DNA of 34,927 nt from Pseudomonadota bacterium (GTDB taxonomy: Bacteria > Myxococcota_A > UBA9042 > GCA-2863065): positions 1-34,927 of the forward strand of contig CANMLD010000019.1 in the NCBI GenBank assembly GCA_947498315.1, written 5' to 3'. This document shows positions 14,336 to 20,432 of the stretch, piece by piece; position 1 is the first letter of the stretch, and each line of letters starts with the position of its first letter. Under the pieces are notes generated by a model. That model did not search any database, had not been told where the DNA came from, and saw only the letters and a program-made list of their open reading frames with translations. The position numbers and the translations under genes are program-made.

Positions 14336-15805
14336 ATGGTCTTTCGCTGCCGCCGCCGACGTATCACGCTTGCCCTCTTCGCAGCAGCAGCCACCCTCGC
14401 CGGTTGCGGCGACGAGCTCGAGGCGGGTAGCACGCTCATCTCGGACGTCGGACGCACGAACACGGCCGACCTCGGTGACGACGACGACACCGGCGGCACG
14501 CCGGGTCCTGGGTCCGATACAGAAGCACCTGACGACACGTTCACGGGCGACGACCTCGATGGCCTGCCTGAAGGCGATACTGCCGACGAAAGCGATGTCG
14601 CTCAGTCCGAAGAGACGTCGCCCGAAGGAGACGCTGGGGGGCTCGAGCCTGGACCGGACTCGACTGCGGTGGACGCACTGCCTCCGGAGCCCATCTGCCC
14701 GGTCGGCCTCGTGGGCTGCATCGAGGGCGACCGTCTCGTGTGTAACGACGACGGATCGGCGTTCGAACGTATCGAGTGTGAGAGCGGCCATTGCCTCGAT
14801 GGGACGTGCGTTGACTGCACTGCCGATGCCGACTGTGAGGCCGGCTTCGAGTGTCAGGCCGGTGCGTGCCTTGCGCCGCCGCTCGTGATCACGACGAGCG
14901 TCCTCCCCACGGGGCAGGTCGGGGCTTCGTACTCGGTCACCATCGCTGCCACGGGCGGCGTGCCTCCCTACGTCTTCGCCGCGAGCGCACCGCCGTCAGG
15001 GCTCAGTTTCACCACTGAGGGCGTCCTCTCGGGGATCCCGGACGACGCGTCGGAGGTCGAGTGGGAAGTGCAGGTGAAGGATGGGGACGACGCGACGGAC
15101 TCATGGGTCTTCATCATCGAAGTCATCGACGCCACGCTGGTCATCACGACGGCGTCGCCCCTCCCGAAGGCTATCGAGGGCGAACCCTATTCGGCTCAGC
15201 TCGTCGCGAGCGGCGGGGTCACGCCATACTATTGGGGCGTCAAGGCTGGCTCGCTGCCCCCGGGGCTCTCGTTCGGTGCGGGAGGGCTGCTGTCCGGGAT
15301 CCCATCGGAAGGTGGGTCCTTCTCATTTACCGTCAAAGCGCTCGATGACGGTGCGCCGACCGCCACGGCCGAGAAGCTCTTCGAGCTGCCAGTCAGCCTA
15401 GCGCCGCTCGAGATCATCGGTGAGCAAGAGGTCAACCTCTTCGTCACCAAGCTAATCACGATGCCGATCATCATCGTAACGCCGGCGTTTCCGGTCCCTT
15501 ATAGCAACAAGCTCACGGCCAAGGGCGGCAAGAAACCCTACACGTGGACGGAGGAGCCGCTCCCGGGCCTCGTCGCAGGCCTGATCCCAGGTGGCGGCGG
15601 TCTGCCGGACGGGCTCACGCTTGCGGCCGATGGGACTGTGAGTGGCGGGGTCACCGATCCTTCCCAGGTGGCCAATGTGACCATCCCCTTCACCCAAATC
15701 ACGCTCAGTGGGTTCTTCTTTCAGGCCCGCGTCAGCGACAGTCAGGCGCCGGCGGAGTCCAAAACAGCGCTATTCATCCTCCCAACCGTGCCCATCGGCA
15801 ATTGA
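14336..15805 (+). CDS. Lipoprotein with Cys-rich motif and putative-Ig (He_PIG) repeats
   Basis: 489 residues with lipobox LAGC at ~24, then a long Asp/Gly/Glu-rich low-complexity spacer (to ~120) typical of surface-exposed lipoproteins. Residues ~120-180 carry Cys pairs (CPVGLVGCIEGDRLVC, CTADADCEAGFECQAGAC). Three putative Ig domains follow: LPTGQVGASYSVTIAATGGVPPY (~190), LPKAIEGEPYSAQLVASGGVTPYYW (~280) and FPVPYSNKLTAKGGKKPYTW (~395). Each continues with a PxGLSF..GxLSGIP motif or a variant of it. Such modules commonly mediate adhesion. The final 36 nt overlap the convergent ttcA gene. The start codon context is weak, but the signal peptide supports it. Confidence 0.85.
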   Translation: MVFRCRRRRITLALFAAAATLAGCGDELEAGSTLISDVGRTNTADLGDDDDTGGTPGPGSDTEAPDDTFTGDDLDGLPEGDTADESDVAQSEETSPEGDAGGLEPGPDSTAVDALPPEPICPVGLVGCIEGDRLVCNDDGSAFERIECESGHCLDGTCVDCTADADCEAGFECQAGACLAPPLVITTSVLPTGQVGASYSVTIAATGGVPPYVFAASAPPSGLSFTTEGVLSGIPDDASEVEWEVQVKDGDDATDSWVFIIEVIDATLVITTASPLPKAIEGEPYSAQLVASGGVTPYYWGVKAGSLPPGLSFGAGGLLSGIPSEGGSFSFTVKALDDGAPTATAEKLFELPVSLAPLEIIGEQEVNLFVTKLITMPIIIVTPAFPVPYSNKLTAKGGKKPYTWTEEPLPGLVAGLIPGGGGLPDGLTLAADGTVSGGVTDPSQVANVTIPFTQITLSGFFFQARVSDSQAPAESKTALFILPTVPIGN

Positions 15806-16606
15806 GCGAGGGCCAGGACCGGTCAGCTCGGAACCCAGGGCGTGGTGATCGAAGAGCTTCTCGTCGAGAAGGTGCGAAGGCCGGATGTTGGCCATGGCGT
15901 TCATGAGGCTGGCCGCGATTCCCGGGATCTCCTTCTCTAGCTCGTGCACGAGACGCCCCACACGGTCACGCTTGAGATCCCGCCCGCGGCCGCACAACGT
16001 GCAAGGCACGATCGGGAACGTCTTCGCGTTAGAGAACTCGATGATCGTGGCCTCCGAGACTTCAGCGAGGGGCCTTATCACCACCACGTCGCCCGCGTCG
16101 TTCAGGAGCTTCGGCGGCATGGTCGCCATCATCCCGGCGAAGAACAGGTTCAAGAGCAGCGTCTCGATGAGGTCCTCTCGGTGGTGCCCGAGCGCGACTT
16201 TGTTGCACCCGTGCCGCCTCGCCGCGTCGTAAAGGATGCCACGTCGCAGCCGTGAGCATAGCGAACAGGGCGTCTGGCCGACTGGCACCTTCTCCGTGAC
16301 GATGCTGTAGGTGTCTTCGCGCTCGATGGCCCATGGGACGTCGAGCGTCTCGAGGTGTTCCCGTATTCGGTGAACCGGAAAGGACGGGTGGCCCTGATCG
16401 AGGTGGAAAGCCAGGAGCTCGAAGCTGAATGGCGCGATGCGCTGTGCACGCATCAGCATGTGGAGCAAGGTGTAGCTGTCCTTCCCCCCAGAGACGCCGA
16501 CCAAGATACGGTCGCCCTCTCCGAAGAGGCCGAGCCGGACATTGAGCTCGGTCATGGCCTTCCCGATCTTTCGCTCGAGACGATCAGCCAACTCGGCGTC
16601 GGTCAT
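15770..16606 (-). CDS. ttcA: tRNA 2-thiocytidine(32) synthetase TtcA
   Basis: From ATG 16606 the product is 278 residues. It is a PP-loop ATPase with ILVGVSGGKDSYTLL, the paired cysteines of the iron-sulfur cluster site in PCSLCSRLRRGILYDAARRHG, ALGHHREDLIETLLLNLFF, and the third cysteine motif FPIVPCTLCG. These match TtcA, which thiolates C32 in several tRNAs using an Fe-S cluster and a persulfide donor. The longer track ORF (TTG at 16726; another ATG at 16687) is less likely, since those extra codons have poor third-position GC and E. coli TtcA aligns from about MTDAEL. The 3' end overlaps the convergent Ig-repeat gene by 36 nt. Confidence 0.95.
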   Translation of the reverse strand: MTDAELADRLERKIGKAMTELNVRLGLFGEGDRILVGVSGGKDSYTLLHMLMRAQRIAPFSFELLAFHLDQGHPSFPVHRIREHLETLDVPWAIEREDTYSIVTEKVPVGQTPCSLCSRLRRGILYDAARRHGCNKVALGHHREDLIETLLLNLFFAGMMATMPPKLLNDAGDVVVIRPLAEVSEATIIEFSNAKTFPIVPCTLCGRGRDLKRDRVGRLVHELEKEIPGIAASLMNAMANIRPSHLLDEKLFDHHALGSELTGPGPRSIADGHGWEDE

Positions 16607-16771
16607 GGGAGGAGGTGCCACGGCGACAGCCACTCGACTTGGGCTGCCGTCGGGGAGAACGGAATGGACTGGGATTCGTGAGCTCATCGGGGCCAGGAGC
16701 CTAGAGAGCGCTCCCACGGGCGTCAACGTGGATCGTCGAGCTAGCCTCAGAGCCGCAACGTCGGCTTGAAG

Positions 16772-17521
16772 TTACAGGCGACATGACCCGAGCGCCGGGT
16801 CGCAGATGAACCCGGGCGCGCAGTCGGCGTAGCTCAGGCAGGCGCCGGCCCTGCACGTGTTGCCGTCGCAGTACTCGCCGTTCAAGCAGTCCCGTTCGTC
16901 GCGGCAGAACGGCGTGTTGGCGCAGATCCCATTCGCTGCGCAGTACGTTCCCGGCGCGCATTCAGCGTTGCTCGTGCAGCGGGCGTCCTCGTAGCAGTAG
17001 CCATTGCCAGCGCAGTAGGCGCCTGAGGGGCAATCGATGTCCTGCGCGCAGGTCCCAATGAGCCCGCAGAGGCCGCTGGCCGAGCAGCTGTAGCCATAGG
17101 CGCACTGGGAGTGCACCTGACAGCCTGCCGCTTCGTAGCAGAAGTTGTTGGCGGCGCAGTAGTAGCCGACGCCGCAGTCGATGTCCGAGAAGCACTCGAC
17201 GCTGAGCACGCAGAGGCCGCTGACCGAACACGCGTACCCGACTGGGCAGTCGACGTCGTAAAAGCAGCCCGAGACTGGCAGGCAGCTGCCGTCAAGCTCG
17301 CAGTACGTCCCGTTGATGCAGTCGAGGTCGCTGCGGCAGCCGTCGTAGTAGCGGCAAATGCCGCTGGCCCCGCAGTACTTGTCGTACGGGCAGTCCGAAT
17401 CGAAGTAACACGGCTGGAGGATCCCGGAAGGGCTCTCGGTCCAGAAGCAGCCGGCGCTCGGCAGGATGAGAGCAATTGGCGCAAAGCGAAGCAGTTGGAG
17501 TGCAGCGTGCATGTTTCCCAT
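16772..17521 (-). CDS. Cys-rich lipoprotein with nine C-x5-C-x5-C-x5-C-type repeats
   Basis: From ATG 17521 the product is 249 residues. It has a lipoprotein signal (..LRFAPIALILPSAGC) and then nine consecutive ~22-residue repeats of the form C-x5-C-x5-C-x5/6-C, for example CYFDSDCPYDKYCGASGIC and CFSDIDCGVGYYCAANNFC. That places about 36 cysteines in ~200 residues, with acidic or aromatic residues between them. Each unit probably forms two disulfides, giving a rigid rod. No enzyme motif is present; a surface stalk or binding protein is likely. The TTG at 17548 in the track is rejected. Similar single units occur in two other lipoproteins of this window. Confidence 0.85.
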   Translation of the reverse strand: MGNMHAALQLLRFAPIALILPSAGCFWTESPSGILQPCYFDSDCPYDKYCGASGICRYYDGCRSDLDCINGTYCELDGSCLPVSGCFYDVDCPVGYACSVSGLCVLSVECFSDIDCGVGYYCAANNFCYEAAGCQVHSQCAYGYSCSASGLCGLIGTCAQDIDCPSGAYCAGNGYCYEDARCTSNAECAPGTYCAANGICANTPFCRDERDCLNGEYCDGNTCRAGACLSYADCAPGFICDPALGSCRL

Positions 17522-17790
17522 GATTTTTCCGACGGCCTCAGAAGTCAACGTCTACTCGAAAACGACGGCCAATACACCCTACATCCCGACCCGCCCCTCG
17601 GCTCGCCATAGTGCGTGGCGATGGAAGAAAGCGCGAGCCGTGACGCGTTCGACGAGCCACGGCGCGAGTTCTTCAGAGAGAGAGCATGCGGTCGGCGATA
17701 ATATCGTTGCACGGCGCCGCCGCCCTCGAGCGGTAGGTTACACCATTGAGGCGGCTGCGCCCCGACCGGCATCGTGGTATCGTCAAAAAG
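17522..17790. other. Divergent region upstream of the nine-repeat lipoprotein and a membrane protein
   Basis: This 269-bp space holds the starts of two opposite transcription units. I see no promoter that stands out on either strand; TAATAT near 17700 is a possible -10 without a clear partner. No repeat or RNA structure was recognised. Confidence 0.4.
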
Positions 17791-18565: not shown

Positions 18566-18886
18566 TTAGCGGGAACGGTCCGGCGTCTCGCGGAGACGGC
18601 GGAGGAGATGCGCCTTGACCGAGTTCGGGGCTTCGGCCGTCGGTGCCGATGCCGGTCGGCGCATGGCTTCGATGGCCATTTGTTCGAGCATGGCGAGCTT
18701 CGCGCGCGTCTCAGGGTTGCCCTGGCCCACGAGGCCCAGCGGGGCGCGCGAGTCCGGGGAAGAGCCCGTGCGCATACGCAGAACGCGCTCTTGCTCAGCG
18801 GACAGGGTGCCGGCGGGAGCCCGCTCAAGAGCGGCCTTCACGCTGACCTTGGTCTCGACGGTGGTCGTGCTTCGTCTCGTGCTCAC
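18566..18886 (-). CDS. Small stand-alone protein resembling sigma-70 region 4
   Basis: 106 residues from a GTG start at 18886, which is preceded by GGGAGGT at ideal spacing. Residues ~28-78 align without gaps to region 4 of the E. coli housekeeping sigma factor as I recall it: LSAEQERVLRMRTG against LTAREAKVLRMRFG, then LVGQ against EVGK and TR..E..A...R.P at matching places (about 17 identities in 51). The helix that reads the -35 element is altered: of the contact residues in TRERIRQ only TR is kept (TRAKLAM). Regions 1-3 are absent. A decoy or adaptor binding the beta-flap or an anti-sigma partner is an inference. The longer track ORF (to 19354) is not coding upstream. Confidence 0.7.
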   Translation of the reverse strand: MSTRRSTTTVETKVSVKAALERAPAGTLSAEQERVLRMRTGSSPDSRAPLGLVGQGNPETRAKLAMLEQMAIEAMRRPASAPTAEAPNSVKAHLLRRLRETPDRSR

Positions 18887-19133
18887 AGGAACCTCCCACG
18901 GCGAATCCGCGTGTTGGTGAAGCCACGTCCGAAGCCATTGCCTTGGACGGAGCTCGCCGGGCCTGAGGTGCAGGGCCGGTTCACAGAAAACTAGTCTGGC
19001 ACTCGCCCGACGGCGGGTCCAGGAACCCGAGATCGATCGTGCTGCGATTGCGGCCAGGCGATGCCCACCATCGCCATGGCGACCGCAACGCCGAGTAAGA
19101 TACGGCCGGTCGGCCCACCCTCCAAGAAAGTTT

Positions 19134-19162
19134 ATCCACCGCAAGCGATCCGGTGGATTTTT
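19134..19162 (+). terminator. Intrinsic terminator, plus strand
   Basis: ATCCACCG-caagcgatc-CGGTGGAT, a perfect 8-bp stem, is followed by TTTT and an AT-rich tail. The direction fits the plus strand. The nearest plus-strand gene ends 650 bp upstream (18477), so the transcript ending here would cross the sigma region 4-like gene in antisense, or come from an unseen small transcript. Confidence 0.65.
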
Positions 19163-19499: not shown

Positions 19500-20432
19500 T
19501 CAATGGTGCGGCTGGAGCTGCCACTGAAAGGCGGCGCCGAGGATTCCGGCGCGTTCGCCTAAGGTGCCGACGTGGACCTCGACGCCGTCCGCGATCTCGG
19601 GGAAAGACGCCCCGCGCAGGGCCGCTAGCGCCGTCTCAGCCATGAGGTCCCATGTGTGTGCGACTCCGCCGGCGAGAACGACGGTTTTGACGTCAAAGAT
19701 GTTGAGCAGGCTCCCTAGGCCGCGGCCGAAAGGGCCCGCGACCGAGTGGAAGCACGCCAGCGCTTTGGGGTCACCAGCACGAGCGCGGATTGCGAGCTGC
19801 TCGGGGAGGTCAGCGGCGTCGAGGTCAACGCCGTCGATGGGGCCGTGAGCTCGAGCTTGAACCCGGAGCCCATTGACCGAGGGGTACATTTCGAGGCAAC
19901 CCCGGCTACCGCACCCGCACGGGGGCCCACTCGGGTCGACGCAGATGTGGCCGAGCTCGCCGGCCATCCCTCGCGCACCTCGCCACATCGCGCCTCCGAG
20001 GATGATTCCCCCACCGACGCCAGTGCCAAGCGTCAGCCCGATGAGATCGCCACGCCCTGCCCCAGCGCCTCGCAACGCTTCACCGGCGATGACGCAGTTG
20101 GCGTCGTTGTCGAGGACGACCGCGTGTCCGGACAGGTCGGAGACACGCCGTTGTATCGGGACGTTGCGCCAGGTCGGGAAGTTGGGCGATCGGCACACGA
20201 GGCCGCGTTCGCGGTCGATGACGCCGGGCAGGCCGAGCCCCACGAGGACGGGGCGCACTCCCGCACACACCTCGTCGATGAGCGACGCAAGCCGTTGCGC
20301 GAGCGCGTCACCATCGAGCCGGGGGCCGTCTTCGACCCACGCGACGACATCGCGCACGACCTCATGGCGTTCATTGACGAGGCCCGCCTTGAGGCGAGTC
20401 CCACCGACGTCGATCCCTACGTAGTGCTTCAT
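19500..20432 (-). CDS. ROK-family sugar kinase (probable glucokinase)
   Basis: 310 residues. The ROK fold is clear: ATP-site motif YVGIDVGGTRLKAGLV at the start, catalytic Asp in VLDNDANC, GLTLGTGVGGGIILGG, then the ROK signature GELGHICVDPSGPPCGCGSRGCLEMYPS. In that signature CGCGSRGC provides three cysteines that bind zinc together with the His of GH. The C-terminal phosphate-2 motif is VVLAGGV. The family phosphorylates glucose or related sugars; the exact substrate cannot be read here, but glucokinase is the most common role. The ATG follows AGGGGAG at good distance. glgC is nearby but in a separate unit. Confidence 0.92.
   Translation of the reverse strand: MKHYVGIDVGGTRLKAGLVNERHEVVRDVVAWVEDGPRLDGDALAQRLASLIDEVCAGVRPVLVGLGLPGVIDRERGLVCRSPNFPTWRNVPIQRRVSDLSGHAVVLDNDANCVIAGEALRGAGAGRGDLIGLTLGTGVGGGIILGGAMWRGARGMAGELGHICVDPSGPPCGCGSRGCLEMYPSVNGLRVQARAHGPIDGVDLDAADLPEQLAIRARAGDPKALACFHSVAGPFGRGLGSLLNIFDVKTVVLAGGVAHTWDLMAETALAALRGASFPEIADGVEVHVGTLGERAGILGAAFQWQLQPHH

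Follow-up and report, generated by a model that had tools for sequence, protein, structure and literature searches.

The window analysed here is the whole 34,927-nucleotide stretch of contig CANMLD010000019.1. At 18566..18886 on its minus strand lies a short gene, with a GTG start and a TAA stop, encoding a stand-alone protein of 106 aa that resembles region 4 of sigma70; a ribosome binding site, GGGAGG, can be read directly 5 nt before the GTG (18892..18897, minus strand). The preliminary description had reported both a 106-residue open frame and a ribosome site here, and both are present; the strand, which it left unstated, is the minus one (18886..18566), and frame 1 of the plus strand across 18566-18886 is not the gene. 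The open frame continues in frame up to 19354, and a longer start in that part was considered and rejected: the upstream portion is absent from the homologues, which begin at the equivalent of about 18886, most of them with ribosome sites of their own, so the start at 18886 is preferred. Given the family homologues and the profile match described below, the short gene is real, and its match to region 4 is beyond chance. A ROK-family gene (19500-20432) lies upstream, and between the two genes an inverted repeat (CCACCG ... CGGTGG) is visible by eye at 19136-19155. Also on the minus strand of the window are a 318-aa ORF (15770-16726), by eye resembling a TtcA-type tRNA thiolation enzyme, and a cysteine-rich 258-aa protein (16772-17548) with repeated C-x-x-D-x-D-C-like units.

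Taken alone, the window protein has no match in Pfam, the cut-off of Sigma70_r4 (PF04545) included, and a weak one to TIGR02393 RpoD_Cterm (E=0.0012). RpoD_Cterm is matched by 29 of 30 family members at E<=0.1 (best 1.5e-6), and Sigma70_r4 by one of the 30 (E=0.069). A profile of these 30 homologues (A1), run against the PDB, aligns without gaps to region 4 chains of E. coli RpoD at E=4e-12, and all of its matches below E=0.04 are sigma factors. When the family is compared by HHalign with 38 sigma sequences and the E. coli one, the result is 98.7% and E=2.4e-16 over 52 columns; the match spans residues 23-77 only and does not align the C-terminal helix to H5. The profile match that had been proposed as a check is thus present, and the earlier claim of a gapless alignment of some 51 residues, including LSAEQERVLRMRTG, holds: that sequence is in the small protein as described, and RpoD region 4 aligns without gaps over about 52 residues. 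The reported absence of regions 1-3 also stands, the protein having 106 aa and its library matches being confined to the C-terminal part of RpoD models. A functional sigma factor would carry region 2, with its -10 recognition, on the same chain, and the window protein does not; the RpoD of the window genome is a separate 583-aa open frame on contig C25, with TRERIRQ kept. Some members match MzaA (best E=1e-4) and phrog_3512, "sigma factor" (best E=1.2e-5), matches that we read as shared sigma homology. On this profile homology, the small protein is a descendant of sigma70 region 4.

Of 53 genomes, comprising the window's own and those of relatives, 43 gave a match to the single sequence, while the A1 profile found a short match in 48 of 52 class genomes, among the matches listed, with one per genome and RpoD as the usual further match. 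The class homologues are 84-123 aa long. A wider profile detects short forms in other Myxococcota families as well, f19 among them, so that the homologues of similar length that the preliminary description had proposed looking for do occur across Myxococcota. Among named public records, the short form occurs in Myxococcus xanthus AM003, Pyxidicoccus fallax and Hyalangium versicolor, and also in MAG records titled Myxococcales, Deltaproteobacteria, Proteobacteria or Bradymonadales bacterium; every public record found for the window's own class is a MAG. The family is in neither Pfam nor NCBIfam, and no publication on it was found in the literature searched; it is an undescribed protein family spread across the phylum. 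For the members searched, a phage origin and a plasmid origin were set aside, the window protein having no match among phage records and a second member (L108) no plasmid match. Three record titles call for comment. A family member occurs in a record titled as a Klebsiella pneumoniae MAG (L121, CAMDBH010000001.1) and another, near-identical to that of Myxococcus, in Comamonas sp. KCTC 72670 by title (L152, BNCN01000002.1); both titles are probably wrong. A record titled Nanoarchaeota archaeon (L126, JAHJDQ010000012.1) has a pair of RpoD-like ORFs close together, 374 and 390 aa long, and since sigma factors are bacterial, its title or binning is doubtful.

To locate what has been kept and lost, 47 members were aligned with E. 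coli sigma70 and compared column by column against 38 sigma sequences. The region 4.1 / helix-2 signature LSAEQERVLRMRTGSS (residues 28-43; 18758..18805, minus strand) is retained, its residues kept in 42-47 of the 47 members: E555 in 46, R560 in 47, M561 in 42, R562 in 45 and G564 in 46. Position 556, an A in E. coli and an E in RpoD relatives, is E in 46, giving a helix-2 signature common to the family of E-E-x-V-L-R-M-R-x-G. L573 (42 members) and E591 (46) are retained too, and the I590 equivalent is I in 28 and M in 15.

The former helix-turn-helix LGLVGQGNPETRAKLAMLEQMAIEAMR (residues 50-76; 18659..18739, minus strand) has had its -35-reading residues replaced. R584 survives in 19 of the 47 members, E585 in none, R588 in two and Q589 in none, so that the family lacks the set by which a functional region 4 was judged; R586 is kept in three and T583 in 17. 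Specificity for the -35 element depends in sigma70 on R584, E585 and R588 (PMC2613000). The change from TRERIRQ to TRAKLAM reported earlier for the window protein is confirmed, and the loss of -35-reading residues extends across the family. TRERIRQ is present throughout the comparison set of 38 RpoD sequences, an invariance that is partly by construction, since a pattern for this very motif served to extract them; the other columns are unaffected. Beyond what was first described, the change reaches the helix-turn-helix core and not the reading helix alone: V576 has become R in 25 of 47 members, F580 is kept in six, and V582 has become E in 34. Falling below the Pfam cut-off and without what a working region 4 requires, the family is not filed here as a sigma factor.

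Near the C-terminus is a further helix, SVKAHLLRRLRE (predicted at residues 89-100; 18587..18622, minus strand), with the family pattern KxxIIxxLRxL; it is conserved in the family alignments A1, A3 and A5, and may be the equivalent of sigma H5. Sigma makes its beta-flap contacts through residues within or close to H1, H2 and H5 (PMC2988021). Of two AlphaFold runs, the one with the window protein first had a mean pLDDT of 71 and pTM of 0.33, and the one with L108 first a mean pLDDT of 80 and pTM of 0.38. Both of these low-pTM models (0.33-0.38) place helices at the positions of H1, H2 and H4 and none at that of H3, and the first has a helix, residues 58-76, where the recognition helix would lie. 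Foldseek with that first model (pTM 0.33) returned nothing below E=5 and no sigma fold; with pTM values this low and no sigma fold found, the retained surface has been judged from sequence only.

Ahead of the region-4 part is a threonine-rich N-terminal tail, STRRSTTTVETK... (residues 2-22; 18821..18883, minus strand), recognised from the composition of the family. Threonine makes up 25.7% of residues 2-22 as against 4.5% elsewhere (52 sequences), and 42 of the 52 sequences have at least 4 threonines in the tail, which is also basic on average.

Class families f2-f9 are represented by 31 loci. At 26 of them the gene directly upstream, on the same strand and no more than about 345 nt away, encodes a sigma54 activator, and at 24 of those 26 this gene is preceded by one for a Ser/Thr kinase; distances were measured from an approximate start, and the profiles derive from these same clusters. 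A Pfam scan of a single locus shows FHA, Sigma54_activat and HTH_8 (Fis HTH) domains in the activator, and Pkinase and PEGA in the kinase. No adjacent sigma54 activator was found in f1, the window's own family (3 loci), in f19 (6) or in f28 (1). The window's own member is without kinase or activator neighbours; an FHA activator is encoded elsewhere in the window genome, beside genes resembling those of nucleoside metabolism.

In relatives, the regions upstream of the small gene share a conserved promoter, which, like the threonine-rich tail and the kinase and activator neighbours, was no part of the preliminary description. At 24 of 41 loci an A-tract, TTG[C], a spacer of 15-19 nt and a TANNNT-like element score above 12. 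The same threshold is passed by 13 of 2245 stretches of 300 bases taken at random and, in front of other long ORFs of those loci, by 2 of 513 stretches; because the scoring was built after viewing the regions upstream of the small gene, the comparison is descriptive only. The form in the relatives is CAAAAAAT-TTGC-N18/19-TANNNT, and its A-tract is similar to AAAAAARNR, the proximal subsite of the UP element (PMC2801614). The window has a weak candidate, TTGGAG-17-TATCTT (19097..19125, minus strand), whose score of 9.5 is below the threshold. A sigma54 (-24/-12) promoter before the small gene was rejected, with 1 match in 41 upstream stretches, about the chance rate. So was a regulon shared through the promoter motif: seven genomes have 0-4 exact matches each, most of them before unrelated genes. 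Of the exact matches elsewhere (L205-L211, L213-L215; functions assigned by eye), one is the promoter copy of the small gene itself in G006 (L208). Two small proteins that are alike and look roadblock-like (L206, L211) follow the matches in G058 and G174; other matches lie ahead of a PilZ-like protein (L213) and of a response regulator (L215).

Taken together, an origin in the end-piece of sigma-70, the replacement of the promoter-reading residues and, in many relatives, the kinase and sigma-54 activator neighbours suggest that the small protein is probably a regulator of RNA polymerase that does not itself read DNA. The parts that would meet the beta-flap are better kept and the DNA-reading parts are gone, and the simplest reading of this is a polymerase-binding regulator derived from region 4, with its beta-flap-facing part kept and -35 recognition lost; we favor this specific form tentatively, at somewhat under an even chance. 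It would have arisen when region 4 of the housekeeping sigma factor was copied. In addition to the residues that read the -35 element, it has probably lost the folded helix-turn-helix. The retained helix-2 face and the C-terminal helix would be the kind of parts that touch the beta-flap in sigma, and the protein would most likely dock at the beta-flap, or close to it, on polymerase in its core or holoenzyme form. Once docked, it may compete with sigma region 4 or modify it, shifting transcription away from -35-dependent promoters, and in most of the class its partners would be the adjacent Ser/Thr kinase, perhaps as a controlling element, and the FHA-sigma54 activator. In favor of a polymerase regulator, genomes within the class and outside it carry the small gene as a single copy in addition to a normal RpoD; against it, the window member has neither kinase and activator neighbours nor a clear promoter copy.

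The same retained helix-2 residues and E591, with DNA reading lost, could also serve an imitation of region 4 that titrates an anti-sigma factor or a region-4-binding activator away from RpoD, and proteins that bind region 4 itself exist in T4 AsiA and MotA (PMC2988021, PMC6755090). No conserved anti-sigma gene was recognised beside the small gene, however, in the loci examined (some neighbours being scanned with Pfam), and we consider such a mimic unlikely.

FHA domains bind phosphothreonine, and the threonine-rich tail and the conserved order of kinase, FHA-activator and small gene together suggest an adaptor, in which the kinase would phosphorylate the tail, the FHA domain of the activator would bind it, and the region-4 part would tether the activator to polymerase. 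However, the tail is also rich in threonine in the window's family, f19 and f28, all of them without that neighbourhood, while the tail in Myxococcus has few threonines; this seems distinctly improbable. Fainter still is the prospect of joining it to the polymerase-binding regulator, as a phylum-wide, DNA-blind remnant of region 4 whose kinase-phosphorylated tail docks on the FHA domain of the sigma54 activator and so couples sigma54 and sigma70 on RNA polymerase. For the polymerase-binding regulator itself, the link between kinase, FHA domain and tail would be a further step, one that leaves the members without that neighbourhood unexplained. Least probable is that the altered recognition helix reads another sequence, as the helix predicted at residues 58-76 and the basic tail might suggest, since the first helix of the helix-turn-helix has lost its hydrophobic positions and is not helical in either AlphaFold model, and several of the replacing residues differ among members, with no settled new reading set.

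Relative to region 4 of RpoD, then, the family shares the gapless stretch of about 52 residues with E555, R560, M561, R562, G564, L573 and E591, and differs in lacking regions 1-3, in its replaced -35-reading residues and polar helix-turn-helix core, and in its threonine-rich N-terminal tail. In Bacillus subtilis, the SigO-RsoA pair forms a working sigma factor. There too sigma modules lie on separate polypeptides (PMC10141391), but in the present family -35 reading has gone from the region-4 part, and the loci examined showed no recognisable gene for a region-2 partner next to it. T4 AsiA is likewise small (about 90 aa), touches the beta-flap and alters the use of region-4-dependent promoters (PMC6755090, PMC2988021); it is, however, a phage protein that binds sigma region 4, whereas this family is sigma-derived, and its window member has no match among the phage records searched. 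The FHA-domain sigma54 activators of Myxococcus xanthus are the kind of neighbour found with most class members (one scanned), a likeness that belongs to the neighbouring gene and not to the small protein.

If the small protein does bind polymerase, a host-encoded regulator derived from sigma would exist in almost every genome of the class and in model myxobacteria, and would offer a tractable example of a sigma domain put to new use with no reading of DNA; with a homologue in a Myxococcus xanthus record (L138), the family can be tested in a laboratory species.
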